Assembly: GCF_000375425.1 (NCBI RefSeq)
Contig: NZ_AQXG01000003.1
Location: 360,854-424,853, forward strand
From: Gracilimonas tropica DSM 19535
GTDB lineage: Bacteria > Bacteroidota > Rhodothermia > Balneolales > Balneolaceae
Length of the DNA: 64,000 bases
Direction: 5' to 3'
Positions 3,063 through 58,213 of this stretch are shown here, piece after piece. The translations under genes were made by a program, and so were the position numbers. The notes under the pieces were generated by a model that did not search any database, was not told where the DNA came from, and worked only from the letters and a program-made list of their open reading frames with translations. Every line of letters begins with the position of its first letter. Positions within the stretch are counted from its first letter, which is position 1.

Positions 3063-3103
3063 GGTCTTATATTGTTAGTTAGGCTAGTTTAGGAAGGAAG
3101 TAT

Positions 3104-24748: not shown

Positions 24749-25726
24749 TTATGAAAGTATGTGTTCTTTTTTATCAGTGGATGTACCCACTAATTTCTTT
24801 GAATACATAGACCGTATAGCCATTTTAGGCGTTCTGTCTATGTAGAATAATCCCCAGTGTTTTTCGGGCTCCAGAGGCTCGGATGATCCTTTCCAGTCTT
24901 CATCAAAGGCCTCGAAGAAAAAGGTTAAAATGCCTTCCTCATCCGTCCATTTCATTAAATGCTCGAAGTATATTTTCTGGTAACTTTCGCTTACATGAGC
25001 CGGATTTATGCCATTTCCATTAGACTTTGTAGCCCATCCTGCTTCGGCAATTACCACCGGCGAATCGGGATATTTTTCAGCCACGGAGTAGTAATTTTCT
25101 TTGGTGTAGTCGATGGCCTCATTAATGTGCTTGTATTCCCAAACGGGATACGTGTGGACGCAAATGAAATCCAGAGCCTCAGCTAATATCTCGAGCTTAT
25201 GTAGCCACGGCACGTAATTTTCGCAAAACGTAACGGGTTGAACCGCTGTTGACTTCAACATATTTACATACTCCAGCACTTTATCCTCATGCACATAATG
25301 ATCGGTCCAGTCCACGCAAGCTTCATTTCCTACTGATAATGAGAAAATTACGTCGGAGTATTTGTCAGCAAATCCCGCAAGTTTTTGGATCTTTTCTTTG
25401 TTTTGAGACGCATTTAATTCAAGCTCTTCTTCAGAATAGACTCCTCCGCCCCACGGACAATTAAAGTTGTTCATTTCCGCTTCGATGTAGGCACCAAGCA
25501 TCACTTTAAAATCCAGGTTTTCCTTTTCGATCACATCTAAAACAGTCTGAGAATGATCGTCACAATTATAGAGGCGCAAATATTTCCAGTATCCTTCAAG
25601 AAGCAGAAGATCTTCCTTTACCTCCTCGTAGCATGGGATGGTATGTCCCGGCCTCTGACCTTTCCTGTAACCTGAATAACAGATGGCTCTTCCTGGCTCA
25701 ATTCCTATGTTGCTGAAGCTGTTCAT
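24749..25726 (-). CDS. Cytosolic GH17-like beta-1,3-glucosidase or glucanase
   Basis: A 325-residue TIM-barrel glycosidase without a signal peptide. ATG 25726 (MNSFSNIGIEPGRAICYSGYR) is chosen over the upstream in-frame ATG 25768, because it lies two bases after the TGA of the preceding gene and removes an unconserved extension. GH17 signatures are acid/base Glu135 in SVGNEACVDW and nucleophile Glu228 in VIAEAGWATKS, where the usual ETGWP is EAGWA. Its SGYR N-terminal motif links it to the GH17 lipoprotein at 30518 rather than to its direct neighbour. It probably trims imported beta-1,3-gluco-oligosaccharides. Exact activity (endo, exo or transglycosylase) is unknown. Confidence 0.85.
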   Translation of the reverse strand: MNSFSNIGIEPGRAICYSGYRKGQRPGHTIPCYEEVKEDLLLLEGYWKYLRLYNCDDHSQTVLDVIEKENLDFKVMLGAYIEAEMNNFNCPWGGGVYSEEELELNASQNKEKIQKLAGFADKYSDVIFSLSVGNEACVDWTDHYVHEDKVLEYVNMLKSTAVQPVTFCENYVPWLHKLEILAEALDFICVHTYPVWEYKHINEAIDYTKENYYSVAEKYPDSPVVIAEAGWATKSNGNGINPAHVSESYQKIYFEHLMKWTDEEGILTFFFEAFDEDWKGSSEPLEPEKHWGLFYIDRTPKMAIRSMYSKKLVGTSTDKKEHILS

Positions 25727-25728
25727 GC

Positions 25729-26637
25729 TCAATATTTGAGGTTTCCGTCTTTGTCCCAGATGCCCCAAAAAGCACCTACATCTCCTTCAGAACCTACTTT
25801 CCAGGATTCATCAAAGGAGGCGAAATAGAATACTTCAATGTCATCATCCTGCGACCACAAATTGGTGTTGATGAAATACTTCATCGCATTTTCATCAGAT
25901 GGAATGGCCCCGCCCAAACTTTTGCCTTTACTCGGCCAGCCGGTTTCGGTGATGATGACACGTTTTCCTTTTCCGGCTTCCTTCGCCTGATAGTACATTT
26001 GGCGCATATGCTGGAAGGAATCTTCAAAACTCGTACCCTCCCAGAATGGATAGCAGTTACAAAGAATCACGTCACAGGCTTCGGTAATCTCAGGTCTTTG
26101 AACGAACTCGTAATAAGCATCTACATAGCCAACCGGAATGTGTTTAGGCAAACGACTTTTAACATCTTTGATGTAATCCAATAGTTCTTTCTCTTCCAGA
26201 TCTTCGCGATACAGCACCTCATTCCCAACTACAGCGATATCTACTAAGCCTTTGTTGGCCAGTTCGATAAGGCTTTCAGTTTCCTCCTCGTTTTTCTCCT
26301 GATCATCTCCCAGCCAGGCACCAACCAGTGTTTTCAGTCCAAGTTCTTTGGCTACTTTTGGGATGTGCTCGTTGCCTTCAATACAGGAAAAGGATCGAAC
26401 CCACTTCGTATGTGGTTTGATAATTTCCATGCGACGACGAATTTGCTCTTCCGAAATCACATCACCGGGCTTCTGTCCTTCTTCATACAAACTGAAGCAA
26501 AGTCCATGTATTCCACTTTCCAACACTTCCCGAAATAAGCAGTCCACTTCTTTTTCTGACAGCTCTTCCAGATAGTTGATCTTGGAAACCTTATCAGACT
26601 CTTTATAACTCAGATATTGTTCTTTTCTAAACGACAT
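25729..26637 (-). CDS. Cytosolic GH17-family beta-1,3-glucanase
   Basis: A 302-residue TIM-barrel enzyme without a signal peptide. Acid/base Glu140 lies in VVGNEVLYRE and nucleophile Glu231 in VIITETGWPSKG, the textbook GH17 motif. It closely matches the C-terminal domain of the upstream permease fusion; shared segments include SGIHGLCFS, PHTKW-RSFSC, GLKTLVGAW and VFYF-SFDESWK. The pair therefore looks like a gene duplication in which one copy is joined to the transporter. The start ATG is one base after the permease-fusion stop, so translation is coupled. The expected role is cytosolic cleavage of laminari-oligosaccharides. Confidence 0.88.
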   Translation of the reverse strand: MSFRKEQYLSYKESDKVSKINYLEELSEKEVDCLFREVLESGIHGLCFSLYEEGQKPGDVISEEQIRRRMEIIKPHTKWVRSFSCIEGNEHIPKVAKELGLKTLVGAWLGDDQEKNEEETESLIELANKGLVDIAVVGNEVLYREDLEEKELLDYIKDVKSRLPKHIPVGYVDAYYEFVQRPEITEACDVILCNCYPFWEGTSFEDSFQHMRQMYYQAKEAGKGKRVIITETGWPSKGKSLGGAIPSDENAMKYFINTNLWSQDDDIEVFYFASFDESWKVGSEGDVGAFWGIWDKDGNLKY

Positions 26638-26638
26638 T

Positions 26639-28990
26639 TTAGTTTACTTTTAACTGTTCATTTTTATTCCAAAGACCCCATCTCGCTCCGACATCTCCTT
26701 CGTGGCGAGCTTTCCAGGATTCGTCGAAGGAGGAAAAGTAAAACACTTCTACTTCCTCCTTTTCACTCCATTTCTTTAAGCGAATGAAATACTTCATCAT
26801 ATTTTCGATGGATGGTTCCGCTTGGTCCACGCTTTTTCCGTAAGTCGGCCAACCAGTTTCTGCGATGATGACTTTTTTACCCGCAGCTACTTCTTTAATG
26901 ACTTCATGCATCTTGGTCAAATACACCGAGGCATGGTCTGCATCATAGCCTTCCCAGAATGGATAGCAGTTCACAAGTATCACATCACAGGCTTCAATTA
27001 CTTTCGGGCTTTGGTGAAGTTGATAGTAAGTATCCACATAGCTCACCATCACTCCGGGCAGCGCCTCTTTCACCTGATTGATGTATGCCACAATCTCATC
27101 TTCACTTAATTCTTCGCGCAATAAACATTCGTTACCAACAGCAACGATATCAGCTTGACCGGCTTTAGCAACCTTGATCAAATTCTCGATTTCCGTTTCA
27201 TTCTCTTCCAGCTCATCATTAATCCAGGCGCCAACCAAGGTCTTTAATCCCATTTCTTTAGCCACTTCAGGAATAAGCTCATTGCCATCGGTACAAGAGA
27301 ACGAGCGGATCCATTTGGTATGCGGAGCCACTACTTTCATTCTTTTCTCTATTTGTGTTCTTGAGAGCTTATCACCCAAATTCTGACCTTCCAAATATGG
27401 ACTGAAACAAAGTCCATGAATACCGCTATTCAACGATTCTTTGAACTCTTTTCTCAATTTCTTGATGCTGAGATTGTTGATTTCGGCGTCGATGGCTTCT
27501 GCGTCGGGGTCGATAGAAATCATGGACAAAAGGCGGTCTTTTTGGTAGAAATAAGGTGCGGGAGCCGTTTCCTTTTCCGCTTTACGAGCATCCAGTATTT
27601 CGCGGACCTCATTCGCTTTTTCTTCGGTTACGTCATAGTCGCGCATCACCCAAAGAGCCACCAGAGTTCCAAACATGGGTAAAGCCGAAAAGAATAATCG
27701 CAGTCCAGTGATTGCTCCTTCAGGTTGAGTATCCAGGTTGCCATCAAATCCAACTACAGATAAAATGACACCGCTTAAACCACCTGCTATGGCAAAACCA
27801 AATTTCACCATGTACCAGTAGATGGCACCGAAAATTCCTTCTCTGCGTTTGCCATATTTGAGTTCATCCAGATCTATAACATCCGCCGTCATCGACATCA
27901 TCAAAACAAACAAACTTCCGATCCCGAAAGAGTGGAAAGGTAAGGCCAGCAGGAACATCCATGGTTTTCCGGGAACAAATAAGAACCACAGACTCGCATA
28001 CCCAATTAATGCAATTGTTTGGGCTATCATAAATGCATTCTTCTTACCCAATTTTTTGGACATTCGAGCGACAATGGGAATCACCAGAAAGGTGGTAACC
28101 AAGGCTCCGGCACTTCCAAAAAGTGGAGTCCAGATTCCCGCTTCACCGGCATCCCCGCTAAACAAGTACCAGACAATAATGAAGAACGAAAATCCTGCTA
28201 CGGTGTTAAATGCATTGAAAATGAAAAAAGTGGAAATACAGAGTTTTCGGAATGGAACGGATGTAAATGCTTCTTTAAATCCCCTTAGGATCTCTTTCAA
28301 GCTTCGACTCACATTTTGCAGGGTCAACGGCTCGTAATCCTCATTTACGGTAGATTTACTGGGAATGAAAATACCCGGAATCATCGCACATATGGCAAAA
28401 GTGATTCCTACCCAAATAGCCAGTTCTCGTGTAGCAACTTCTGCAGTTGGAAACCAAGCTGGATCATACATAATAACCCAAAACCACGGTGCAATCACCC
28501 AGGCCCACTGACCAATCCATTGAGCAATCGCCATAATTTCGGTTCGCTCATGAAAGTCGTCACTCATTTCGTAGCCGATAGCTACATAAGGCACGCTAAA
28601 AATGGTTAAGCCAATGTAGAAGGCGAACGACCAAAACAAGAAATAGCCAAAATTATAGTTGACCGAGTTTTCCCCATAAAGCTGCCACATGATGGTAAAA
28701 GCAATACCCATAATAACGGCACCGGTGATTACATACTGCCTTCTTCGCCCCCATTTTGAGCGGGTGTTATCCGAAATAAATCCCATAATAGGATCGGTAA
28801 CGGCATCCAGAATGCGCGGCAGAAAGTACACAATTCCCCACATCCAGCCGGGAAACCCGAGATTCTGCACCAGCACCACCATGAAGATCCCCAACGTAGC
28901 AGGAAACATCTGATTGGCCAACATACCCATCCCGAAGGCAATTTTATGCCGATAGGGCACTTTCTTTTTTAAAGCTTTAGGCTGCGACAT
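26639..28990 (-). CDS. GPH/MFS sugar permease fused to a cytosolic GH17 domain
   Basis: A 783-residue single frame. Residues about 1-460 form a 12-helix transporter of the glycoside-pentoside-hexuronide (GPH) type: MLANQMFPATLGIFMVVLVQ, the family-typical DAVTDPIMGFISDNTRSKWGRR between helices 2 and 3, and GKRREGIFGAIYWYMVKFGF later. A charged linker (about 460-505) leads to a complete GH17 domain (about 506-783) with acid/base Glu621 (VGNECLLRE) and nucleophile Glu711 (IIAETGWPTYG). GPH carriers have both ends in the cytosol, so the enzyme domain should hang on the inner face and cut oligosaccharide as it arrives. No stop or frameshift separates the two parts. Transport substrate (laminari-oligosaccharides) is inferred. 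Confidence 0.9.
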   Translation of the reverse strand: MSQPKALKKKVPYRHKIAFGMGMLANQMFPATLGIFMVVLVQNLGFPGWMWGIVYFLPRILDAVTDPIMGFISDNTRSKWGRRRQYVITGAVIMGIAFTIMWQLYGENSVNYNFGYFLFWSFAFYIGLTIFSVPYVAIGYEMSDDFHERTEIMAIAQWIGQWAWVIAPWFWVIMYDPAWFPTAEVATRELAIWVGITFAICAMIPGIFIPSKSTVNEDYEPLTLQNVSRSLKEILRGFKEAFTSVPFRKLCISTFFIFNAFNTVAGFSFFIIVWYLFSGDAGEAGIWTPLFGSAGALVTTFLVIPIVARMSKKLGKKNAFMIAQTIALIGYASLWFLFVPGKPWMFLLALPFHSFGIGSLFVLMMSMTADVIDLDELKYGKRREGIFGAIYWYMVKFGFAIAGGLSGVILSVVGFDGNLDTQPEGAITGLRLFFSALPMFGTLVALWVMRDYDVTEEKANEVREILDARKAEKETAPAPYFYQKDRLLSMISIDPDAEAIDAEINNLSIKKLRKEFKESLNSGIHGLCFSPYLEGQNLGDKLSRTQIEKRMKVVAPHTKWIRSFSCTDGNELIPEVAKEMGLKTLVGAWINDELEENETEIENLIKVAKAGQADIVAVGNECLLREELSEDEIVAYINQVKEALPGVMVSYVDTYYQLHQSPKVIEACDVILVNCYPFWEGYDADHASVYLTKMHEVIKEVAAGKKVIIAETGWPTYGKSVDQAEPSIENMMKYFIRLKKWSEKEEVEVFYFSSFDESWKARHEGDVGARWGLWNKNEQLKVN

Positions 28991-29008: not shown

Positions 29009-30514
29009 TTATGACGGATCACGAACAGGTATTACGACCGTTTGAATGGCTTTCCCTGCTATTTGGATGGGGACAGACTTATCTCCCAGCTTTAATTTGT
29101 ATTCCTTCGCTTGCGCTTCTTCATTCAGGAGCACCACTGCAATATTTCCGTCGGGATTTTGAACGGCTGTAAGCTGTAATCCCTCTTCGGTTTGACTGTG
29201 ACCAATTCTTACCGCACCGGGTCGAATCCACCGGCTAAAATGACTCATTGTGTAGTACAACGGGGTGAAGTACACTTCATCAGCTTCCTCATCCACAATA
29301 ACCGGAGCCACACACCAGTTTTGTGCCCAATTCGGTCCACCCTTTCGGTTCAGCACCATATTCCAGTCTACCCAGCCATCAACCCAATTGTTAAGCGTAC
29401 CGATGATATCCCGCGCATAGCGAAATACCGGCACATATTTGGGGTGAAGATGTTTGCGATCTTCAGGCGCCCAATCCCAGCCCCAGTCGGTGGCTTCTTT
29501 AGACCAATACCAGGCGTCATCCTTCCATGCTGGAATGTCCGCATCTATCGTAGCCTCGGTTTGAATTAGATGCTTTTTTGGAGCTTTTTTATGCGCATAC
29601 TGAAGTTCATCGGCAAAAATCTTGTACGTACTCGCATACCAGTGCACCGCCGTTCCATCGTAATATTGAGCGGCTTCTTCGTCGTCATACATCGCATCCA
29701 CCCACTCTATGAGCTCTTCGTGGCGATTTTGATCGTAACCTAAAAGAACAACATCCGCGTACCCATCCTGCTCCAATCGTGGACCCAGATGATTTTTTAC
29801 AAACTCGTTCTGTTCTTCCGGGGTGAAATGCATACTCTCCCAGTTGCTGTCGTTTCCAAGCGGCTCATTTTCCACTGTAATGCCCCAAATGTCGATGCCT
29901 TCTTCTTTGTAGGCAGTCAGATATTTTGAGAAAAACAGTGCCCAAGTATCGTAATATTCGGGAAGCAGCTTTCCGCCTTTCCAGTCGTTGTTGTTTTTCA
30001 TCCAGGGGGGCGAAGTCCATGGAGAGGACATAATCTTGAAGCCATCCTGAGAAATAGCCATCGCATCTTTGATCATCGGAATGATGTCATTCCGGTCTTC
30101 TTCAATCGAGAAGTGCTCAAGGTCGCGATCACCTGGAACCGGAGCATAGGAATAATTCCCCAGCGAAAAATCACTGGAGTTCATGTGCGTACGAGTGAGT
30201 GAATATCGCGCACCGGATTCCCCAAAATAGGCTTCAAGGATTTCCTTTCTGTTTTCTTCACTTAATTTATTCAACAAATACGCACTTGCCTCGGTAAAGG
30301 AACCGCCTATTCCGGTAATTTTCTGGAAGGTTTCCACCGGGTTGATGGTCACCTGAACTGGATTTTCAGCCTCGGAAAGCGCTTCTATTTGCGTCAATTT
30401 ATTTCCACTTTCGGAGGTTTCGTAGATCTCCACATCCAATGAATCCGAATTTGTGCAGCACGCCATAAAGACGATCATGATTAAAATAGTAAGTAGTTCT
30501 ATGTGCGGAATCAT
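29009..30514 (-). CDS. GH30-family lipoprotein, likely beta-1,6-glucanase
   Basis: A 501-residue enzyme with a hydrophobic signal ending in a lipobox-like FMACC near residue 20, so probably a lipoprotein. The GH30 core opens with ITGIGGSFTEASAYLLNKL and shows acid/base Glu217 in TVENEPLG and nucleophile Glu320 in LIQTEATI; the C-terminal beta-sandwich follows. GH30 includes beta-1,6-glucanases and glucosylceramidases; beside GH16 and GH17 genes, removal of the beta-1,6 branches of laminarin is most likely. It starts three bases after the 30518 stop, and the permease fusion follows after 18 bases. Confidence 0.87.
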   Translation of the reverse strand: MIPHIELLTILIMIVFMACCTNSDSLDVEIYETSESGNKLTQIEALSEAENPVQVTINPVETFQKITGIGGSFTEASAYLLNKLSEENRKEILEAYFGESGARYSLTRTHMNSSDFSLGNYSYAPVPGDRDLEHFSIEEDRNDIIPMIKDAMAISQDGFKIMSSPWTSPPWMKNNNDWKGGKLLPEYYDTWALFFSKYLTAYKEEGIDIWGITVENEPLGNDSNWESMHFTPEEQNEFVKNHLGPRLEQDGYADVVLLGYDQNRHEELIEWVDAMYDDEEAAQYYDGTAVHWYASTYKIFADELQYAHKKAPKKHLIQTEATIDADIPAWKDDAWYWSKEATDWGWDWAPEDRKHLHPKYVPVFRYARDIIGTLNNWVDGWVDWNMVLNRKGGPNWAQNWCVAPVIVDEEADEVYFTPLYYTMSHFSRWIRPGAVRIGHSQTEEGLQLTAVQNPDGNIAVVLLNEEAQAKEYKLKLGDKSVPIQIAGKAIQTVVIPVRDPS

Positions 30515-30517
30515 CGT

Positions 30518-31813
30518 CTATAGCTCCTGTTTTGACTGAATTTCTGTATCCGTTGGTGGTACTTTCACCGTTTCCATCAGTGCATCCAGGTCCCCGTTAA
30601 ATGTTTTGGTGATGGGTTTTCCATCTCTTGTCAGTCCGTCGAAAACTCCCGTATCTACTTCATCCCAAAGCATATATTTTGCCTCTGATTGCAGGTTGAT
30701 CAGCCCAAAATGATTTTCCGAGCCTTGTTGATTATCCGCATCTTTCCACTTCTCATCAAAGGCTTCGAAGTAGAACACAGACACGCCGTTCTCCTCCGAC
30801 CACTCCCTAATTAATTCATAGTAGCGGGCCGATTTAAACTCATCCGTCGCCCGAGAACCTTCATTACCGTAATAACCATTGGAAACGGTAGCCCAGCCGG
30901 TTTCCCCAATATGAACTTGCTTATCCACGCCCAGACTTTTCATATAATCCACCACGCTTTGGTATTGCGAAACCGAATATTCCAGTGATCGCTGCATGGC
31001 GGCTTCGATCTTTTCTTCATCGCTGAAATCGGTTTCATTTTCCCGAACACCCCAGAAATTGGGATTGTAATGCGTATCGTGCATGGGATAGGTGTGCATG
31101 GAAATGTAATCCACGGCCTGGATGAGTTTGTTCAAATCTTCTTTGTGATATTCACTTCCTCCTCCACCCCAGGATGCAAAATTGTCCGAGCTGGTGATCC
31201 ATAAAGTTTCAGAAAGTTCGCCTTGTTTTTTCAAATCCTGCAGATGATTCACCCACCGCAAAATAATTCCCGGCTCCACCCAATATTCGGTTTGCCAGTG
31301 CACCATAGCTTCATTCCCCACTGCAATCACTTTCACGATATCGGGATATTCTTTAGCTAAATTTGCAGCCCGCTCAATTTCCTTTGCGTTACGCGGACTG
31401 TCTTCATCCCGAATGCGTTCCGGTTCATCAGTCCAGGCATTTTTGGCATCAATCCACGCGCCCATCATCACATACATCTCGAATTCAGGATCTGCTTCTT
31501 TCATCTCCCGAATGGCTTGCAGCAATCTTGGGACGGCTTCTAAATACACGTTGTAGGTCCGCACAATCTTGATGCCCATCGCTGACAGAATTCGCATGTC
31601 TTCTTTTAGTTCCGGAATAGATGGGACGCTGTCGCGGGTAATTTCCCGGTATCCGCTGTATGATATTGCGGGATATTTAATAGGATCGGCCAGGATTTTT
31701 TCGGCCGTAATCGTCTGCTCATTCATAGGATTTCCGGCTCGATCACCACAGCCCACAAACAGCACGGAGGCTATCAGGATGGTATATATGAAAGGTTTGT
31801 GCATGGTGATCAA
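30518..31813 (-). CDS. GH17-family lipoprotein
   Basis: A 431-residue lipoprotein (signal TILIASVLFVGC, lipid-bearing Cys near residue 22; an alternative start is ATG 31804). The barrel carries acid/base Glu168 (VGNEAMVHW) and nucleophile Glu304 (HIGETGWATVSNG), both as in GH17. It shares SYSGYR and a GHW/WATxSNG pattern with the shorter enzyme at 24749 and an insertion relative to the other two GH17 copies. It is expected in the periplasm or at the outer membrane, acting on beta-1,3-glucan chains before import. It begins nine bases after the phosphorylase stop. Confidence 0.87.
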   Translation of the reverse strand: MITMHKPFIYTILIASVLFVGCGDRAGNPMNEQTITAEKILADPIKYPAISYSGYREITRDSVPSIPELKEDMRILSAMGIKIVRTYNVYLEAVPRLLQAIREMKEADPEFEMYVMMGAWIDAKNAWTDEPERIRDEDSPRNAKEIERAANLAKEYPDIVKVIAVGNEAMVHWQTEYWVEPGIILRWVNHLQDLKKQGELSETLWITSSDNFASWGGGGSEYHKEDLNKLIQAVDYISMHTYPMHDTHYNPNFWGVRENETDFSDEEKIEAAMQRSLEYSVSQYQSVVDYMKSLGVDKQVHIGETGWATVSNGYYGNEGSRATDEFKSARYYELIREWSEENGVSVFYFEAFDEKWKDADNQQGSENHFGLINLQSEAKYMLWDEVDTGVFDGLTRDGKPITKTFNGDLDALMETVKVPPTDTEIQSKQEL

Positions 31814-31822
31814 GGTTTTGAG

Positions 31823-34800
31823 TTATAGGAGATGTTCCGGTTTTAGCGATACTGTAATTTGTTTGATGTGGCCGCTCCGCTTGAAGATTTGTTGGGATAT
31901 CTCTTTGTCGAGTTTTGTATGCTGAAATTTTCCGGTTGAACCGTCGCTCATTTCAACTTCCAGTGCGTCGGAATCAGAAATACGATAGACCACCGGCACC
32001 TGACAATAGGTAAATGCAAGCGCTTGTTCGGGGACTTCAATTCGATAATTTTCCTGCTGTATTGAGATCAGTTCTACATCACGGGTTTCCTTCGTGAATT
32101 CCTCTTTTTTCAGCAGAAATGGATTGAATTCCACTTGTCCGGCTTCCACACGAATGCCCAATTCCCCGATTCTGGCAATGATATCTTCCTTCACCTGACC
32201 GGTCATTCCGGGCTGCTGAGCTCCCTTGTGATTCGGTGTATGCGAATATGGATCCGTTGGGAAAGCACCATACACATCCGGTGATTTATGGATACCAATT
32301 CCTTCACCGATCTCTTCGAAATGGCGGGCTAATTTTTGTTGAACCGATTTATCGGCATTGCTGCGATAGGCTTCTTCACAAACCTCATACACCGCGAGAT
32401 ACAGCTTCGAAACCATGTGCCAGTAGATAGAGCCCAATCCTTCATACGCAAAAAATGTCCCCGAACGACCCGTAAATGCTTTGTGATTGAAAACCTCTTC
32501 AAAGATCTGTAAGATCAGTTTTTCTTCTTTTTTAGCCAGATCAGCGTACTGGGTTGTGCTTAATTCGTTGAGTGCTTCTTTCAAATCCCGGGCATTTTTG
32601 AAATTTCCGCTGAAATGATAGCCACCGTTCACATCCTTCTGGATAATTTGACGATGTCCGTTTTCCAGCAACTGCGGCAAAAGTTCAGATTGCTCTACCA
32701 ATTTTTTGGGGATGTTATTCCGCTCCAAAAACCCAGGTAATTCCTTATTTGGATACAGGATATAGCTCTGCTGATCTTTGCGATAAAGCGAACTTTGGCG
32801 AAGGGCATCCAGCATCTTCACTGATTCTTCCGGCGTTAAATATCCGGAGCTTAAAGCGGCAACCTGACCTTCCAGCATTTCCTGGAGGTACGAAATGGAA
32901 ATCCCATCTTCCTCAAAACTCATGATGTTATAGGCGTGATAAAGCTCGTCGTCCCGTTTGTTTGCTTCAATGGAATGCTCCAGGTAATCGAGTGCCGTGG
33001 AAATGAAATCAGCAATATCGCTGATTGAAATCGTTGTTCTCTCCCCGGAAAACCCGTTTTCGTAGATTTTATTTCTAAACGTACTTCCGGCTTTTCCAAG
33101 AGCTTCGGTGATCGCCTCACGATCTTGGTTGCCGATGCTTCCATCCAGCAGATCCGAATGATCGCTGAGTACAGTGTGAATTCCCTCAAAAAACGTCTTC
33201 ATTTCTACGGAAACAGATACCTCATCCTGCTCAACATGGTCCATAAGCGGCTCAAAAAACTTCAGAAATCTGCGCAGGTAATACAGCGTCACCATAGACA
33301 CGCCATTCCCGACCAGTGCGTTGTTGGCATCGTTCCATTCGGGGCGTTGCGTGTTCATCCAAATTCCGGCTTCAGGAATGAAATTCGACACTTTAGCCAG
33401 CACCGTTGCCAGCGTTTTTTCCATAAAATTGACGCGGTGAATATCGTCTTTTTGGCTACCTCTCAAAGCGCCATCGGCTCCCAATTTTTCAACTTTATCG
33501 CGAATTTCGGCATCGGCCACATCATCAAATTCGATGGTATCTTTGGGATCGTTGGCAATGTCTTCGTAGCCCTTAATTCGGTACGGAACGTTGGCATATA
33601 CGAACACTTCTTTATCAAAAAGTTGGGTAAGTGCTTCCGGCTCGTGCGACTGATAAAACTCCAGGAACTTGAGCAGGTAAATGATCTGATGATCACCCCA
33701 GTATCCGATGTACGACCACGGATCATCCGCATCGGCAATTTCCCAGTCAAAGCCGTCTTTAGTCACACGGTATGGGTTGTATCCATCAAAAGTAGAAGCA
33801 TTCAGAAACTTGAAGATCATTCCTTCAATAAACTTGGGATAGGAATGCGCCAGTGCTTCCCAATTCTGGAAAATATCGCGCCAGTTGCCTTCATAATCCA
33901 GAATTTTGGAACCGTCTACTTCATTGTGGGTGTTGATGGAAAATATATTCCATGGCCGACTTGGATCTCCATGGCGACGACTGAATTTTAGCGGCAAATA
34001 TTCTTTTCCAAGCCTGAGTAAATCCGGATCATCGGATTCCGCTAATTTTTTATTCAACGTGAATTTGTCGAAAGTTTCTTCCAGTCCGCTAATGAACGAA
34101 CCGTTTTTCTCCACCACCACTTTGCTGGCGTTTTTCAGGTACGCAACAAAATCCCCTTTCTCAATTCGGTAGTTATGATCAAAAGTCCCGCCGCGCATAA
34201 TATTGAACAGCGTATTCGAGAAATGGCGGGCATTTTTAAGCTGATCCGAACTTCGCTGAATGCCATCGGCACCGGCTACCAGCTGCTTCAGCTTTTCGGT
34301 GCCCCGCTCGATGTCGTCCTCAACTTTAGCCTCCAGATTCTTGTCTTCTTTCAGGGCTTTATTCAACTCAATCACGTTGGCGTGATTCTGATTTACGTTT
34401 GCCGCCATCATCCATTTTTGGGTTGAACCGGATGAAAGCTCCAGGTCAGAAACTAAAAAGTAGGCCCCTTTTTCGGCTTTGATGTCTTCTTCCTGCTCAA
34501 GCGGTTCCTGTTTTCTGAACCGATTTAACTGAAGCGAAGAAAGTAAATAGGTTGGATTTTGGAGTCCTTTGGACCACGCCACGTTTGCTTTCAGAGCTTC
34601 ACTTGGCTCCGCTTTATCTACGATGATAGCGCTGAGGGCATATATTCCCAATCCAGTTTCGGAAACCAGTTCGCTGCGTTTGTAGGCATCTACCAGGTTG
34701 CTGGAGCGATTTTGGAGATCGCTGCTTACGCCGTACGGCATAATGTTTTGCATCCCATCCAGCACGCGAACTTTTCGGTTTTCATCCGAATGGTTAGTCA

Positions 34801-35236
34801 GCTCGGACTTCCGCACAAAACCATACAAATTGCTGGAATTCCACTGGTATCTAAAGGTTAGCCCGAGATCGTGGTTGATCTCTTCAAATAAGATCTTATT
34901 GCCATGCCAGCTTTTGTACACGTTTCGGCTGGTTTTAAAGCGAAATTCACCCCGTTCTGAAAATGGTTCCCAAACCAGTGTTTTCCCATTTAGCTGAACT
35001 TGAAAAATGGTTTTACTGCCCGTGGTGTGCGCCAGTTCTGTGATCTTGTCATCCGTGTAATAGGGAAAAAGTGCGTACTCGGCATTTTTTCTTCCTGCAG
35101 TAAGTCCGCCATTGCTTGAGATAAACATCCAATGATTGGAATCACTGACTACGCTCATAAAAAATGGACGTTGCTTGTCAGAGTCAGATATTTTGAACCA
35201 GGTTTCGCCTTTAATTTCTTGAACAGTGATAGACAC
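31823..35236 (-). CDS. Beta-1,3-glucan phosphorylase, GH149/GH161 type
   Basis: A 1137-residue protein with no signal peptide. The size and order (N-terminal beta-sandwich about 1-290, helical linker, then an (alpha/alpha)6-barrel) fit the large GH94-related phosphorylases. Visible barrel motifs are YEGNWRDIFQNWEALAHSYP, DPWSYIGYWGDHQIIYLLKF and MNTQRPEWNDANNALVG, where Asp636 is at the general-acid position of the family. GH149 and GH161 enzymes split beta-1,3-oligoglucans with phosphate, giving glucose 1-phosphate. The locus context strongly favours this substrate over cellobiose (GH94). Which of the two families it belongs to needs a database comparison. It sits between the GH16 and GH17 lipoprotein genes. 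Confidence 0.8.
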   Translation of the reverse strand: MSITVQEIKGETWFKISDSDKQRPFFMSVVSDSNHWMFISSNGGLTAGRKNAEYALFPYYTDDKITELAHTTGSKTIFQVQLNGKTLVWEPFSERGEFRFKTSRNVYKSWHGNKILFEEINHDLGLTFRYQWNSSNLYGFVRKSELTNHSDENRKVRVLDGMQNIMPYGVSSDLQNRSSNLVDAYKRSELVSETGLGIYALSAIIVDKAEPSEALKANVAWSKGLQNPTYLLSSLQLNRFRKQEPLEQEEDIKAEKGAYFLVSDLELSSGSTQKWMMAANVNQNHANVIELNKALKEDKNLEAKVEDDIERGTEKLKQLVAGADGIQRSSDQLKNARHFSNTLFNIMRGGTFDHNYRIEKGDFVAYLKNASKVVVEKNGSFISGLEETFDKFTLNKKLAESDDPDLLRLGKEYLPLKFSRRHGDPSRPWNIFSINTHNEVDGSKILDYEGNWRDIFQNWEALAHSYPKFIEGMIFKFLNASTFDGYNPYRVTKDGFDWEIADADDPWSYIGYWGDHQIIYLLKFLEFYQSHEPEALTQLFDKEVFVYANVPYRIKGYEDIANDPKDTIEFDDVADAEIRDKVEKLGADGALRGSQKDDIHRVNFMEKTLATVLAKVSNFIPEAGIWMNTQRPEWNDANNALVGNGVSMVTLYYLRRFLKFFEPLMDHVEQDEVSVSVEMKTFFEGIHTVLSDHSDLLDGSIGNQDREAITEALGKAGSTFRNKIYENGFSGERTTISISDIADFISTALDYLEHSIEANKRDDELYHAYNIMSFEEDGISISYLQEMLEGQVAALSSGYLTPEESVKMLDALRQSSLYRKDQQSYILYPNKELPGFLERNNIPKKLVEQSELLPQLLENGHRQIIQKDVNGGYHFSGNFKNARDLKEALNELSTTQYADLAKKEEKLILQIFEEVFNHKAFTGRSGTFFAYEGLGSIYWHMVSKLYLAVYEVCEEAYRSNADKSVQQKLARHFEEIGEGIGIHKSPDVYGAFPTDPYSHTPNHKGAQQPGMTGQVKEDIIARIGELGIRVEAGQVEFNPFLLKKEEFTKETRDVELISIQQENYRIEVPEQALAFTYCQVPVVYRISDSDALEVEMSDGSTGKFQHTKLDKEISQQIFKRSGHIKQITVSLKPEHLL

Positions 35237-35287: not shown

Positions 35288-36115
35288 TTACTGTTTATAG
35301 ACTCTTATATAATCCACTAACATGGTTTGTGGAAATCGGGTTGAGCTGTTTGGCGGGCCGACAAAGGATCCTCCCACAGCCACGTTCAAAATGATGTAGA
35401 AAGAGTTATCATTGAATACCCACTCACCATTTACATCTTCAGGAGTGATCTCGTTGTAGAGCACATCATCCACATAATATTTGATGGAATTCGGCTCCCA
35501 CTCTATCGCAAATACATGAAACTCCGTATCAAATCGTCCGGTGGTGAGTTCATACCGGTCGGTGACCGCATTTCCAGCAGAATAGCCCGGTCCGTGCACG
35601 CTTCCGTTAATCACCGTGGGCTCCTGTCCGCGATATTCCATGATGTCGATCTCCCCGATTTGTGGCCAGCTTACCGTTCCATCGGAATCATCTCCCAGCA
35701 GCCAGAATGCAGGCCAAATTCCTTGTCCCCACGGCAGTTGAATTCGGGCTTCAAATCGACCGTAGGTGGTTTGGAATAGATCGCGCGTCAGGATTCGGGC
35801 TGAAGTGTAGTTAGAGTTTTGGAAGGATTCATTCCGTGCTGTGATCTCCAGCATTCCGTCTCGAATCTCCACATTTTCGGGGCGATCCGTATAATACTGA
35901 AGTTCATTATTTCCCCAGCCGGGCTGGCCGAAGATCTCCTCTCCGGTTCCGATATCGAAGGTCCAGTTTTCGGAATTGACGCTTCCATCAGCATCGAATT
36001 CATCTTGCCAGACGATTTCAGTGTAGGTTTCTTCGGGTTCATTGCTTTCGCAGCCCGTAATGATGAATGCAATAACTGCAAATGGAAATAATGATACTCT
36101 ATTTAAAAATGTCAT
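35288..36115 (-). CDS. GH16 laminarinase lipoprotein
   Basis: A 275-residue endo-beta-1,3-glucanase of the GH16 family. The signal peptide ends in the lipobox FIITGC (Cys about 22), so it is anchored to a membrane, probably the outer one. The concanavalin-like sandwich shows WGNNELQYYT, GRFEARIQLPWGQGIWPAFW and the catalytic GEIDIMEYRG with nucleophile Glu155, assisting Asp157 and acid/base Glu160. This motif with the Met bulge is typical of laminarinases and lichenases. It has no type IX sorting domain. It is the main candidate for initial chain cutting. Confidence 0.93.
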   Translation of the reverse strand: MTFLNRVSLFPFAVIAFIITGCESNEPEETYTEIVWQDEFDADGSVNSENWTFDIGTGEEIFGQPGWGNNELQYYTDRPENVEIRDGMLEITARNESFQNSNYTSARILTRDLFQTTYGRFEARIQLPWGQGIWPAFWLLGDDSDGTVSWPQIGEIDIMEYRGQEPTVINGSVHGPGYSAGNAVTDRYELTTGRFDTEFHVFAIEWEPNSIKYYVDDVLYNEITPEDVNGEWVFNDNSFYIILNVAVGGSFVGPPNSSTRFPQTMLVDYIRVYKQ

Positions 36116-36159: not shown

Positions 36160-37578
36160 CTATCGGTACAGGTAAATATTATCCACATAAATGGTTGCAC
36201 CTTGCAATGCAGTACCGCTATCTGAATCAAATACGATCTGTCCCAGATTCGCTTTTCTTGCCATTCCCGAAATATCAAGATTGATGGTAATCCACTCTCC
36301 TGAAGTTAATTGAGGCGGAGTGATATTGATTCTTGCTTGTGTATCATCACTGCCCCCAAAAGCATCATCTGGGCCAAAGTCTCTGATATTTACCGCAAAA
36401 GCAGAGCCAACGGGCACTTCATTAGGCAAGAAAATATCAACGGAAAGATTGGTCATTTCACTTCCATCAATAGTTGGTACGTTTTGGTTGAACTCTATAC
36501 CCACAAAGTTGAAGTTTTCGTAGCCTAGCACATTGTTTCCATTTACAACAAAATCATTGGAAGTGGTCGTCTGATATGGTGCATAAAATCCGTTGTAGAA
36601 ATCGACCGGTACGTTTTCGTAGGAATCACTGAAGATCGAGATTACATCCTCAGGACTTTGCGTTGGCGTTGGTGCAGGGGTAAACTCTCCTAAAGATTCA
36701 ACGGTTAGCATTCCATCCGAAGGTTCGCCATTCATGCTTGCGGTAATTTCAGCGGTGCCGGTCCCTACTACCGAAACCTGTCCGTTTGCATTCACCGTAG
36801 CTACATCCGTATCGTTTGAGTTGAATGTGAAATAAGCAGGTGCAGGTACCACCGTCAAGTCCTGACCATTTGCCTGATTTATTGTAAAATTCAACCCGGA
36901 AAGCTGGATATTTGAGCCGATGAAACTGGTTTGGGTTTCATTCTCTCCACCAAGAATAGCAGAGCGAGGTTGAGCGATATCAGTCAGGTTCTCATACTTA
37001 AGCTCATCAATCCAAAAAGAGTAGCCATCACCGTCTTCAGGTCCTTCAGAATACCAGAACATTCCCTGAGTGCGGGTTAACACTGACGCATTTGGAATGG
37101 GAATGATGTATTTACGCCAGTAGGTGGTCAGTTTCATATTATTGAGTGCAACGGCATATTCATTTCCCATGAAATCCTGCCCAAAACCGATCTCGTTTAC
37201 CGTTCCGGCGGTGGTTCCTTTGGCATAAAAAGTGAGTGCATTGTAGGAGGATAAATCACGTCCTCCGTTATCATCACGAAATATGGCACCGGCATAAGCT
37301 CCTTCCGGATCGCCGACATTGGGAACATCGAGTCGCATAGCGGCCGATGAATTGTCGTAGGTTTCATCATTATCTACCGTAAATGCATTCAGTTTTGAAC
37401 CCTCGAACGGATAATATTCCAGTCCGGAACTAAAACCATCAATAAAAACTTCAGGATTTTCAGTGAACCCGGGTTCTTCCAATCCATCTACTGAGCGCTC
37501 ACAGCCCTGAGCAATGAACATGAGCAGCAGACCTGCCATTAGTGTACGTGTGGTGTTTTTTAAGACCATTTTTTTCAT
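36160..37578 (-). CDS. Surface glycan-binding lipoprotein
   Basis: A 472-residue lipoprotein (lipobox FIAQGC near residue 26) without catalytic motifs. In order: a jelly-roll domain (about 40-195, FIDGFSSGLEYYPF, DGYSFWIDELKYE), a BIG2-like bacterial Ig domain (about 205-295, STxxVATVNANGQVSVVGTGTAEITA pattern), a Pro/Thr linker, then a second jelly-roll (about 311-472) that starts DVISIFSDSYEN and ends YVDNIYLYR. The last module is the same type as in the secreted protein at 22468. It is probably a SGBP-like carbohydrate-binding protein at the cell surface. It sits between the barrel-glycosidase and GH16 genes. Confidence 0.82.
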   Translation of the reverse strand: MKKMVLKNTTRTLMAGLLLMFIAQGCERSVDGLEEPGFTENPEVFIDGFSSGLEYYPFEGSKLNAFTVDNDETYDNSSAAMRLDVPNVGDPEGAYAGAIFRDDNGGRDLSSYNALTFYAKGTTAGTVNEIGFGQDFMGNEYAVALNNMKLTTYWRKYIIPIPNASVLTRTQGMFWYSEGPEDGDGYSFWIDELKYENLTDIAQPRSAILGGENETQTSFIGSNIQLSGLNFTINQANGQDLTVVPAPAYFTFNSNDTDVATVNANGQVSVVGTGTAEITASMNGEPSDGMLTVESLGEFTPAPTPTQSPEDVISIFSDSYENVPVDFYNGFYAPYQTTTSNDFVVNGNNVLGYENFNFVGIEFNQNVPTIDGSEMTNLSVDIFLPNEVPVGSAFAVNIRDFGPDDAFGGSDDTQARINITPPQLTSGEWITINLDISGMARKANLGQIVFDSDSGTALQGATIYVDNIYLYR

Positions 37579-37593: not shown

Positions 37594-40500
37594 TTAATTC
37601 GTAATATCAATTTGAATGTATGTTCGGAACTCCCACTCGCTTCCATTTCCGAAACCGGGAGCCGTTGGATCTGGAACAATTTGACCGCTTGGGTCTGTGG
37701 TGTACGCCGGAGCATAGCGCGGAGAATATTGATCCAGTGTTCGATAGGTTCCTCTCACACCAATTCGGGTGGATGGCAAATCGAACCAGGTTGGGCTGCC
37801 CAGATTAGTAGAAAAGTCAGCCATCAACTGAAGCGGGAACGTTAGGTTGAAATCGCGGTGATAATCGTATGGGCCCCAGTCGTTCACTTTTGCAAATGCG
37901 CTGATTTTTGCTTTTTTGTAAATGGCTCGCACATCTCCGCCAAAGTGGGTAATTAGCCGTGGATCACTTCCTCGGGCTTGAGCATCTCCACCATAGAGAT
38001 TTGCTATAATTCCAAGATCACGATTCACTTTAGAAACCACGCGAGCATTAATCTCCCAAAGGTCTTCGGCCGGCGGTGCTCCGGGGAATGGGAAAAAGGT
38101 TCGTCCATCAGGCAAAATACCTATGGCGGCATCCCGTGTGGTTGGCAAATGGCGGAATACAAAGCCCAGGCTCATGGCTAAAGGAGCATCCTCAGCCATG
38201 TCATTATTCCATTCGTACATGTAAGTTCCGGGCGTGGGATCGTAGGTCAGTAATAACTCACCAGCAATTTGTTCACGGTTTCCATCATGAACGGTGAATG
38301 GATCATCCAGAATATTTCGGGGTCGGCCTGGTGCCTGTACATCGGTAGAAATGGGGCCTTCAATAGGTTTTTGCCATAAGAAATTCGGGGCAATCTGCAG
38401 ATTTCCAATATTGTAGGTAAAACCGGTTAAAGCATTGTATTGGTTTCCACTTCCGCTGCCTTTCAATCTCCAGCCGGTGAAGGTCATGGTTTGATCGGCT
38501 CCGCCATTGGCAACCAATCCCATTACTGCCGATTGCGCATACCAGTTGAAAAGTCCTTTCGTGTACGTAAATTTGATTTTTCCACCCCAGTTATCTTCGG
38601 GTTTGATCTCATCTACATACACATTGTAACTGCCATCGGGCTGCTCTCGCACCAACTGAAATTCACGCCCATTTAGAGGCTGACCGGCCCAGATTCCGCC
38701 AATTTCAACGCCAAAGTTTCCAAAATCACGTGCGACATGAACGGCAAGTCTTCTGGTTTTGGGCTCAGGAATAGCGAAGGAACTTCCGGTCAGTCCTTGT
38801 CGCTCAATATCTTCATGGTATATGGCCGTTAGATCGGTTTGAGCTACATTGGTTGAATATTTCAGCAGTACAGCCGGGTTGGCTCCCCACCACAACTGTG
38901 GGCCAAAAGCCAGCTTAAAGCCGTCAAACATTTTCTTTCCTTCGGCTTCAAATCCAAAAGGGGCATCGCCATTATAGATATCGATCTGCTCACCATAGTT
39001 AGCTTCCGGGTACAATCCGAAGAAATCGCCTTCATAGCCCCAGTGATAGTGTCCGGTTCGGTAAAATCCATCCAGGTTGAAATATTCCTGGTTCCAGGAA
39101 TAGCTGGCGCTGTAAATATCAACGGTATTAAGAGCTGTAGTAACCACTTCTCCGTTTTGGTTTACCAGGTCTCGGGTGCGGCCACGGTTTTCATAAAAGA
39201 TCTCGTCAATCGGATTTTCGGCTACATTGCCCAAAATGTTGGTAACCACTTCTGCCCGCATGTTGGGAGAAGGATTTGCCTCTACCCCAATAAAATAGGA
39301 TTGCATGTGGTCAAAACCCTGCTCATCGGGATAGGTGTTTTCGGTGGGATCTGCATCTTGTGGAGTGGTGATAAGATCGCCACCGGTGTTAAATGTCTCA
39401 AATGTGGCTGAAAAACGGCTTAGTGAAATTTTCTGAGCACCACTTTCAACCTGACCGCCTCCTGCTCTTGATCTCAGTTCAGCATCTACCACAGAAATGT
39501 TCGCAAAGTACGATTCCAGTGTAGAATTATTCGCATTAGGTGCATAAGGATCGAATTGGTGTATTTCCTTCAACACATAATAAGCCGCCCTTGGGTAAAG
39601 CTCGTAAAATCCTTTGAGGTCGGTTGGGCCTTTAGCCATAATTCCAAACCATTCCTCGTTCATGTTGTTCTCGCCTTCAACAAAATCAAACTGATAGCCG
39701 CCGTTGGACCAGGATGCATGGGTATCGTGCGTGTTTAGTCCCTCAGTTTGGCCGAATTTCCACCAGCCATCACTAAACTGAAAAGTAAATCCACCGATGG
39801 AGTTATCATTTCCTCCTAAACCGGCTGCATTTTTGTAGATCTCCTTCCAGTTGCTGAAGAGATATTGAGCTTGTGCTCCCTGTGCTTCCTGAAGCGTTCT
39901 TGCGTTAAAAGCATCTGAGCCAAATTCAGTTAGTAAAACCGGTTTTCCATATTCATCTTTCACGCGATCGTAAAGATCGGTGAAGGTCATTCCGCGATAG
40001 GTGTTGGTTCCAAAAATATCGATATCGGGAGCCAGCTCCGTGATCAGTTCCATGAACAGCAGGTCACCGTTGGCGATAGCGATTGGTCGGTCTGTGGAAA
40101 TCTCTTTCATTGCAACCGCTGCATCGTTAAAAAGCTCATACATGGCACGTGCGCGGATCGTGGATTTTCGGTCTTCGATGGGAATGTCTTCCGTCTCGGC
40201 TCCACCCCAGAAAAGGCCATAGTTATTTTCATTTCCTAATAAATAGAGTAGCAAACCCGGAGTACCCTTGTATTCTTCAACCAGCTGGGTGACTTCACTC
40301 AGCAATAATTCACGAACTCTTGGATCGGAGTATTCTGTGTTGGCCATCCACGCACCATCGATGGTAAGACCGTAACGACCAAATGAATGATTCAACATCG
40401 TGTAGATGCCGTGATTCTCATATATATAGGTGATCCATCGTTTGGGAATTCCGGTATAAACTCGAATGGCATTCACACCCATATTTTTCAGCAACGACAT

Positions 40501-40734
40501 TTCATAGTCGAGGGCTTGTTGAATGAATTCGGGAGATTGGTTCCACAAGCTGTACGAGTAGTTGGTTCCTCTTGGGAAGTAATCCCAGTTCATCCCGTTA
40601 ACGATGAGAGGCTCACCGTCAACCAGCAGCTTCCATCCTTCCTGAGTTTGTTCAACTTTAACCTGTTCCGACTGCCCCATACCAGTCATTGAAAAGCTGA
40701 AAATTGTGATGATGAGTATGGCGATTCTTTTCAT
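37594..40734 (-). CDS. Clan-A glycosidase fused to a putative outer-membrane beta-barrel
   Basis: A 1046-residue protein. ATG 40734 is used because it gives a proper signal peptide (MKRIAILIITIFSFSMTGMG); the frame is open upstream to 40866 but the extra 44 residues mask the signal. Residues about 25-440 form a TIM-barrel hydrolase: DGEPLIVNGMNWDYFPRG, NAIRVYTG, acid/base candidate Glu169 (LLGNENNYG) and nucleophile candidate Glu270 (LLTEFGSD), the clan GH-A layout. From about 470 to the end the protein becomes alternating amphipathic strands with many Trp, Tyr and Gly (HYHWGYEGDFFGLYPEANYG, GGIWAGQPLNGREFQLV), as in porins. The C-terminus (EFRTYIQIDITN) lacks a final Phe. Exact GH family not identified. 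Confidence 0.72.
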   Translation of the reverse strand: MKRIAILIITIFSFSMTGMGQSEQVKVEQTQEGWKLLVDGEPLIVNGMNWDYFPRGTNYSYSLWNQSPEFIQQALDYEMSLLKNMGVNAIRVYTGIPKRWITYIYENHGIYTMLNHSFGRYGLTIDGAWMANTEYSDPRVRELLLSEVTQLVEEYKGTPGLLLYLLGNENNYGLFWGGAETEDIPIEDRKSTIRARAMYELFNDAAVAMKEISTDRPIAIANGDLLFMELITELAPDIDIFGTNTYRGMTFTDLYDRVKDEYGKPVLLTEFGSDAFNARTLQEAQGAQAQYLFSNWKEIYKNAAGLGGNDNSIGGFTFQFSDGWWKFGQTEGLNTHDTHASWSNGGYQFDFVEGENNMNEEWFGIMAKGPTDLKGFYELYPRAAYYVLKEIHQFDPYAPNANNSTLESYFANISVVDAELRSRAGGGQVESGAQKISLSRFSATFETFNTGGDLITTPQDADPTENTYPDEQGFDHMQSYFIGVEANPSPNMRAEVVTNILGNVAENPIDEIFYENRGRTRDLVNQNGEVVTTALNTVDIYSASYSWNQEYFNLDGFYRTGHYHWGYEGDFFGLYPEANYGEQIDIYNGDAPFGFEAEGKKMFDGFKLAFGPQLWWGANPAVLLKYSTNVAQTDLTAIYHEDIERQGLTGSSFAIPEPKTRRLAVHVARDFGNFGVEIGGIWAGQPLNGREFQLVREQPDGSYNVYVDEIKPEDNWGGKIKFTYTKGLFNWYAQSAVMGLVANGGADQTMTFTGWRLKGSGSGNQYNALTGFTYNIGNLQIAPNFLWQKPIEGPISTDVQAPGRPRNILDDPFTVHDGNREQIAGELLLTYDPTPGTYMYEWNNDMAEDAPLAMSLGFVFRHLPTTRDAAIGILPDGRTFFPFPGAPPAEDLWEINARVVSKVNRDLGIIANLYGGDAQARGSDPRLITHFGGDVRAIYKKAKISAFAKVNDWGPYDYHRDFNLTFPLQLMADFSTNLGSPTWFDLPSTRIGVRGTYRTLDQYSPRYAPAYTTDPSGQIVPDPTAPGFGNGSEWEFRTYIQIDITN

Positions 40735-58188: not shown

Positions 58189-58213
58189 TTGTTTTAAAGC
58201 CGAGTAATTCATT

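Follow-up and report, generated by a model that had tools for sequence, protein, structure and literature searches.

The 64,000-nucleotide stretch of Gracilimonas tropica DSM 19535 analysed here (the window) encodes, at 37594..40734 on the minus strand, a single protein of 1046 amino acids in which a signal peptide and a GH158-like glucanase domain are followed by an outer-membrane-type barrel. This fusion is a real, widespread and apparently undescribed architecture. We propose, with a rough probability of 0.55, that this protein serves as outer-membrane entry point in a laminarin (β-1,3/1,6-glucan) operon devoid of SusC and SusD, consisting of a predicted 22-stranded barrel and a GH158-like enzyme that would face the periplasm. 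Each half resembles something known, a GH158 glucanase and a large outer-membrane barrel, and their combination and genomic place make the protein a plausible single-chain alternative to SusC/SusD.

The fused gene and its two halves

The open reading frame (ORF) extends from an ATG at 40734 to a stop at 37594. The initial annotation had delimited it correctly, but it is coded on the minus strand; the plus strand of the interval contains many stops. Residues 1-21 (MKRIAILIITIFSFSMTGMGQ; 40672..40734) read by eye as a signal peptide, with a helix at residues 2-18 in the model and a low mean conservation (0.35) over residues 1-20. The clan GH-A (GH158-like) catalytic domain comprises residues 22-425 (39460..40671), with Glu169 as acid/base and Glu270 as nucleophile. 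It is followed by a linker of residues 426-435 (39430..39459), where model confidence is low (predicted local distance difference test, pLDDT, below 50 at 425-434), and by the predicted outer-membrane barrel, residues 436-1046 (37597..39429), all on the minus strand.

A scan of one genome per species yielded at least 579 stretches with a relative. All of the best 80 loci, which were kept, encode both halves in a single frame (61-85% identity), and contig ends cut two of the loci at the start; these 80 and the window make up the 81 loci referred to below. The 80 belong to Balneolota, many Bacteroidota families and single metagenome-assembled genomes (MAGs) labelled Thermoanaerobaculia and KSB1. 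Species in culture that carry the fusion include Flavobacterium terrisoli (L047), F. cellulosilyticum (L054) and Algoriphagus kandeliae (L100). When the barrel alone served as query, 36 of 395 genomes of the phylum matched. The barrel lies in a frame of at least 1028 amino acids in 33 of them. Of the other three matches, the one in G235 is to a fragment, the one in G119 to a relic, and that in G302 is weak, local and to a different outer-membrane protein. A barrel profile run over 198 genomes gave 24 matches, 23 of them fused and the last a 55-residue relic beside a barrel-less enzyme. Apart from fragment and relic, the barrel was found only in fused form. GH149 occurs in 33 of 34 barrel genomes (the fragment counted) compared with 70 of 395 genomes overall.

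For the N-terminus, a secreted clan-A hydrolase with Glu169 and Glu270 as candidate catalytic residues had been annotated. This assignment holds for about 425 residues, and the residue numbering was correct. Taken alone, the enzyme half gave only sub-threshold Pfam matches (GH2 TIM barrel and GH72), and a single-sequence phmmer search of the PDB returned only β-galactosidases (best E 0.019). With a profile of the 81 homologues, GH158 ranked first among PDB entries in hmmsearch (6pal at E 6.9e-5, 9oro at E 2.2e-3). In BuGH158 from B. uniformis, the counterparts of N168, E169 and E270 are N136, E137 and E220; in the paper on this enzyme, which gives the code 6PAL, alanine mutation of these residues is reported to have abolished activity (PMC7157763). 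R91, N168, E169, Y246, E270, W324 and W325 are conserved without exception in the 81 sequences. Invariant residues of this kind are clan hallmarks. Clan GH-A enzymes have two catalytic glutamates, after β4 and β7, and an asparagine before the acid/base, a pattern that N168-E169 and E270 match by their alignment with BuGH158. A second route leads to the same family: a set of eight proteins adjoining GH149 in other loci (A5) aligned with the enzyme domain at 99% probability and 24% identity in hhalign, and L176, the one A5 member tested, matches 9oro at 2.9e-87 and is a GH158 enzyme.

With the GH158 enzymes of known structure (BuGH158, PDB 6pal; GH158(Pro), PDB 9oro) the fusion shares the clan GH-A domain, the aligned NE and TEFG/TEWG catalytic motifs and a place in a β-1,3-glucan locus together with GH16. 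It differs in the weakness of the direct match, in the attached membrane barrel and in the absence of a C-terminal Ig-like domain as in BuGH158, since the model runs from a TIM-type domain through helices into the barrel. By sequence comparison, the enzyme half is probably a clan-A glucanase whose nearest relatives among solved structures are GH158 endo-β-1,3-glucanases. A role in glucan synthesis, considered for the weak GH72 match (E 0.0021), was dropped because the profile favours GH158 and the operon encodes a GH149 phosphorylase and an inner-membrane transporter; no glucan synthase was recognised in the operon. As a separate observation, GH158-type enzymes (confirmed for L176) adjoin GH149 in L164 and L172-L177, from genomes that lack the barrel. 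Several of the loci include genes that look Clp-like by eye and show no recognisable polysaccharide utilization locus (PUL).

An AlphaFold2 model built from the 81 sequences (mean pLDDT 77.6, about 79 over the barrel; predicted template modelling score, pTM, 0.55) lays out the C-terminal 610 residues as long β-hairpins. By our own count on the DSSP string there are 22 strands, 11 outer loops with a mean length of 27 residues and 10 turns with a mean of 5, eight of the latter being only 2-3 residues long. Thus, the barrel appears to be 22-stranded. The porin-like barrel of the initial annotation stands as far as outer-membrane-type hairpins are concerned, whereas the expected 16-18 strands do not. 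The outcome named beforehand as speaking against a barrel was a C-terminal half made of soluble β-sandwich domains, and the modelled secondary structure shows none. At moderate model confidence, the protein combines a signal peptide read by eye with an even number of amphipathic strands and with turns and loops on opposite sides, as do outer-membrane β-barrels. The absence of a final Phe was noted correctly: the protein ends in ..EWEFRTYIQIDITN and the family consensus in ..RTYIxINI, both without a C-terminal aromatic residue on the last strand.

The excess of amphipathic strands over shuffled sequences amounted to z 3.1 in the C-terminal half and −0.5 in the N-terminal half of the same protein, as compared with 2.5 and 5.2 for two SusC barrels and −0.6 to −1.1 for three soluble enzymes. 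Two further proteins of the window that resemble outer-membrane proteins scored 1.4 and 3.5, and the lipoprotein neighbouring the fusion also 1.4. The two, which served as controls in this strand count, are encoded at 3104-4612 (plus strand) and 56680-58212 (minus strand), have about 500 residues each and similar N-termini by eye.

The outer loops are as conserved as the enzyme. Mean conservation is 0.76 in the loops, 0.77 in the catalytic domain and 0.74 in the strands, and invariant positions make up 68 of 297 (23%), 23% and 43 of 263 (16%), respectively. A 62-residue loop (559-620) reaches 0.87. In ordinary porins, loops are the variable part. Therefore, the outer loops of the fusion probably bind something specific, and judging from the alignment such conservation is not expected of a mere anchor.

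By sequence, the barrel family is without a convincing relative in Pfam or the PDB. In a Pfam scan of 40 barrels, three families matched weakly with at most two members each (best E 0.017, a domain of unknown function), and no porin family matched; the barrel profile found a single chance-level match in the PDB (E 1.3, a soluble regulator). The Plug domain (PF07715) gave no match in the fusion. A kinship with OMP_b-brl_3, to which the match in G302 (E 9.5e-4, 27%) might point, is not claimed, given the null result of hhalign with SusC reported below; no further match of this kind came from the barrel profile in the 198 genomes.

Several properties of this half weigh against the proposed entry point. 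The strands were picked by hand, partly for the alternation of long and short connections. Ten strands of 3-8 residues were left out as loop elements, among them the 8-residue strand 606-613, while the 7-residue strand 552-558 was retained; the long strands and tight turns are nevertheless present in the model output itself, apart from this selection. The barrel is read from the secondary structure of a model with a pTM of 0.55. The amphipathic-strand count separates weakly, one outer-membrane-like protein and the lipoprotein scoring alike at 1.4, and so supports a barrel without proving it. Finally, hhalign of the barrel with seven SusC proteins gave a probability of 0.4%, similar to the 0.2% of a soluble control.

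The operon and the place of SusC and SusD

The fused gene is the first of a β-glucan operon, as annotated initially. The gene upstream lies on the other strand, and the operon continues downstream with mostly short gaps, all genes being on the minus strand. Directly behind the fusion follows a lipoprotein (36160..37578; lipobox by eye) with a Big_2 domain, no other Pfam match and, by eye, resemblance to a carbohydrate-binding module (CBM). It is likely a glycan-binding partner of the barrel and may act as a SusD-like one. The next gene encodes a GH16 lipoprotein (35288..36115; lipobox by eye), likely a surface endo-glucanase. It is followed by a GH149 1,3-β-glucan phosphorylase (31823..35236), which shows no signal peptide by eye and is assigned to the cytoplasm, a GH17-type lipoprotein (30518..31813; 27.6 bits, just below the Pfam cut-off of 28.2) and a GH30 (β-1,6-glucanase-like) lipoprotein (29009..30514), the lipoprotein signals of both being read by eye. 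An inner-membrane transporter of the major facilitator superfamily (MFS) or glycoside-pentoside-hexuronide (GPH) type carries a C-terminal GH17-like domain (26639..28990; both by eye). Two GH17-type genes (25729-26637 and 24749-25768; together 24749..26637) show no signal peptide by eye and were assigned by clustering with 30518-31813.

Much of this arrangement is conserved, the usual order being barrel, lipoprotein, GH16, GH149, GH17, GH30 and MFS. In 79 of the 81 loci the barrel is followed at once, on the same strand, by the lipoprotein, the exceptions being a contig end (L079) and another ORF (L105), and GH16 is second behind the barrel in 72, the other nine having no second ORF in the stretch. 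Across the 81 loci we found GH17 in 56, GH149 in 55, MFS in 49 and GH30 in 42, numbers that are lowered by contig ends and refer to gene calls made as greedy longest ORFs.

In the window genome, all three SusD (PF07980) and 24 Plug matches lie on other contigs, in agreement with the initial statement that no SusC/SusD genes are near; the susC/susD pair that adjoins carbohydrate-active enzyme genes in a Sus-type PUL was not found on the window contig. Two home-made profiles for SusC and SusD, built from two and seven seeds and with E-values inflated by absorption of their own hits, had no match in the 81 barrel loci. Pfam scans covered 96 of 201 unassigned ORFs of at least 300 amino acids near these loci; the Pfam tables list 25 families each, including all those with two or more members, so that at most one SusD or Plug member per table could escape.

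Of the 33 other barrel genomes, 30 were searched for PF07980 (G204, G235 and G305, with short contigs or a fragment, were left out); SusD-like proteins of other families escape a search with this one, and neighbours are lost at contig breaks. SusD lies at least 26.9 kb away or on other contigs in 22 of the 30. In another four (G051, G066, G144, G255) PF07980 matched nothing, though each genome has 16-37 Plug matches; the closest lies about 20 kb from the fusion in G255 and about 27 kb in G051, and G066 and G144 have none on the fusion contig.

The remaining four genomes stand against the proposal. In G103, G053, G226 and G355 (loci L183-L186), which belong to one family, SusD lies 2.0-5.5 kb upstream of the fusion together with SusC, identified by the home-made profile only, in the same operon. 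In L184-L186, SusC, SusD, a lipoprotein and GH16 come first and the fusion follows, accompanied by a lipoprotein, GH16 and GH149 of its own, which places two import modules next to each other. The 38 GH149 regions without a full barrel also weigh on this side, with SusD in four and SusC-like genes in six; as SusC/SusD are so few there, no general either/or rule applies. A strict exclusion between SusC/SusD and the fusion was therefore rejected, both by the four genomes and by the many barrel-less GH149 regions without SusC/SusD. The fusion normally occurs without SusC/SusD nearby, yet coexistence is possible. The initial idea of a SusC/SusD substitute fits largely, in that the operon lacks the pair and the barrel sits where SusC/SusD sit in some related loci, but not strictly, as the pair coexists with the fusion in four of 30 genomes.

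Eight close relatives lack the barrel (L145, L149, L151, L153, L156, L170, L181, L200), with 56-71% identity over the enzyme domain. A midpoint-rooted tree was built from 54 enzyme domains, namely 44 of the 98 fused rows, the eight barrel-less ones and two distant ones. The barrel-less enzymes are scattered in it among the fused ones, and its well-supported branches require three or more changes of state. Since the fused form is so widespread, repeated loss of the barrel is the simplest reading of this tree, with which repeated gain would also be compatible. In L151 (genome G119; 2025-3629) a barrel was lost, perhaps recently: the barrel-less enzyme is followed at once by a 55-residue relic of the barrel start, and neither lipoprotein nor GH16 precedes GH149.

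Some of these relatives have SusC/SusD instead. L145 contains SusD (by Pfam), the end of a SusC gene (by the home-made profile only, without Pfam match) and the enzyme without barrel, and is sister to L183, where SusC/SusD accompany the fusion (support 100/98). L181 combines SusC/SusD with the barrel-less enzyme, and the homologues of this pair in L154 were confirmed by Pfam. L154 belongs to the L200 genome, where its SusC/SusD lie beside GH149, about 12 kb from L200 on the same contig. Such swaps are expected if SusC/SusD can make the barrel dispensable, which falls short of proof. The other five (L149, L151, L153, L156, L170) speak against it, showing no SusC/SusD in the stretch examined, in some cases a short contig.

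Proposed uptake model and competing explanations

In outer-membrane proteins, the side that bears the termini and tight turns is the periplasmic one. As the strand number is even and the two ends of the barrel share the side of the tight turns, the enzyme at the N-terminus should reside in the periplasm. This disfavours the initial suggestion that the fusion cuts glucan at the surface, a task more likely carried out by the GH16 lipoprotein next to it.

We infer the following order of steps, of which orientation and transport are the least certain. Surface GH16 and glycan-binding lipoproteins would cut and hold the glucan, and the conserved outer loops of the barrel would bind it and narrow the pore. 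Oligosaccharides would then cross the barrel and be cut at its inner mouth by the N-terminal enzyme, which would occupy, in the periplasm, roughly the position of the plug of TonB-dependent transporters and trim the incoming chain. GH17 and GH30 may complete digestion in the periplasm, the MFS(-GH17) protein may carry short sugars inward, and cytoplasmic GH17 together with the GH149 phosphorylase may yield glucose and glucose-1-phosphate. A 22-stranded pore would need a plug, and candidates for this role are the enzyme and the conserved loop 559-620. That the scheme does not account for the closing of so large a pore without a plug counts against it. Only tentatively, and as less than an even chance, do we extend it to a plug-less 22-stranded importer gated by its own glycosidase, a 'catalytic plug', that would be common in Bacteroidota and Balneolota and replace SusC/SusD for β-1,3-glucan.

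The same chain might instead work like an autotransporter, the barrel carrying the glucanase to the surface and anchoring it there for cutting while sugars enter by other channels. The classical type V arrangement, with the enzyme at the N-terminus and the barrel at the C-terminus, is shared by EstA-type autotransporters with enzymatic passengers. In the model, strand 1 is preceded by helix 415-425 and the 10-residue linker, which could pass through the pore, and barrel-less relatives such as L181 and L156 look by eye like lipoproteins and could be surface enzymes. BuGH158 itself was predicted to be a surface enzyme in the paper describing it (PMC7157763). What makes surface display unlikely is the size of the barrel: about 22 strands and 610 residues with conserved outer loops, where classical (type Va) autotransporters have 12 strands and a pore helix. 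A similar terminal segment also ends the barrel-less enzymes, so that the helix is probably part of the enzyme. Moreover, outer loops conserved like the active-site domain are unexpected of an anchor, and no other outer-membrane importer is seen in most fusion operons.

Still less probable is a barrel that is closed by its own loops and transports nothing, merely holding the glucanase in the periplasm near the outer membrane. It would agree with the barrel-less relatives, as at least three changes of state suggest that the enzyme works without the barrel, and the conserved 62-residue loop could fill the lumen. A lipid anchor, which the neighbouring genes use, would be far cheaper, and both the conservation of the loops and an operon left without an importer of its own in most genomes weigh against this reading.

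The fusion might also descend from a TonB-dependent transporter that has changed so far as to be unrecognisable, with the glucanase in the place of the plug and uptake still energised. This would fit the 22 strands counted on one AlphaFold2 model. TonB-dependent transporters make up family 1.B.14. In superfamily I of a survey of pore families, 22 strands are listed solely for 1.B.14 (PMC4827864). A protein with an OMP_b-brl_3 domain also gave one weak local match (25% over 126 residues). We regard this origin as improbable in view of the missing Plug match, the 40 barrels without a Pfam match better than E 0.017, the hhalign probability with SusC at the level of the soluble control and the lack of a clear TonB box by eye.

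Relation to described systems

Glycan uptake in Bacteroidota is read mainly through SusC/SusD. From these importers, the proposed entry point differs in being one chain without Plug, SusD or sequence similarity in the barrel. The β-1,3-glucan locus 1,3GUL of B. uniformis is described as comprising SusC, SusD, SGBP-B, GH16, GH158 and GH3 (PMC7157763). The fusion, with about 22 predicted strands, heads an order similar to the one reported there, namely a binding lipoprotein, GH16 and further enzymes.

Clusters without SusC/SusD were recorded before. In 2018, GH149 'CAZyme clusters' of Bacteroidetes without susCD-like pairs were noted, containing GH149 with GH16 and/or GH17 and GH3 and/or GH30 (PMC5827456). 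From the description given there, they are probably in part the same clusters as the fusion operons. In the passages of that paper considered here no outer-membrane protein is named for the work of SusC/SusD, and we propose the fusion as one. If it is the entry point in susCD-free clusters, a widespread route is overlooked when glycan use is counted by SusC/SusD, and a testable function is gained for a barrel family that has no convincing relative in Pfam or the PDB. The fusion may be an undescribed way for glucan into bacteria whose laminarin-type operon is usually without SusC/SusD. The presumed substrate is a huge pool of carbon: laminarin is stated to account for more than 10% of the carbon dioxide fixed yearly (PMC11345257).

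In a bloom study that took susC or susCD as the defining mark of a PUL, laminarin PULs appear in notations such as GH149-GH0-GH16_3, and GH0 and GH16_3 genes of one MAG are reported in its top 10% of expression (PMC10108472). It is our guess that the unclassified GH0 is kin of the fusion enzyme, perhaps in its barrel-less form. A survey of 76 outer-membrane pore families describes fusion to other domains as rare, and the words 'hydrolase', 'enzyme' and 'glycosid' do not occur in its main text (PMC4827864). We found no account of a glycosidase-barrel fusion among the open-licence papers listed, subscription papers and preprints being outside this scope.

At the inner membrane, the MFS-GH17 protein FORMB_24740 of Formosa, reported from a laminarin locus, combines transporter and GH17 domain in one chain (PMC6246565), and the protein at 26639-28990 of the window operon looks like it. 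While the Formosa protein, as described, belongs to the inner membrane, the fusion couples another enzyme family to the outer membrane, so that enzyme and transporter would be joined at both membranes within one operon.

Two genes occupy the far end of the cluster on the minus strand. One encodes a secreted CBM-like protein of 740 amino acids (22468..24690; by eye), the C-terminal tail of which carries what we take to be a motif of the type IX secretion system (T9SS). The other encodes a propeller/helix-turn-helix-type regulator (19539..22241; by eye), homologues of which are present in 36 of the 81 loci, that is in 35 of the 80 loci of relatives.

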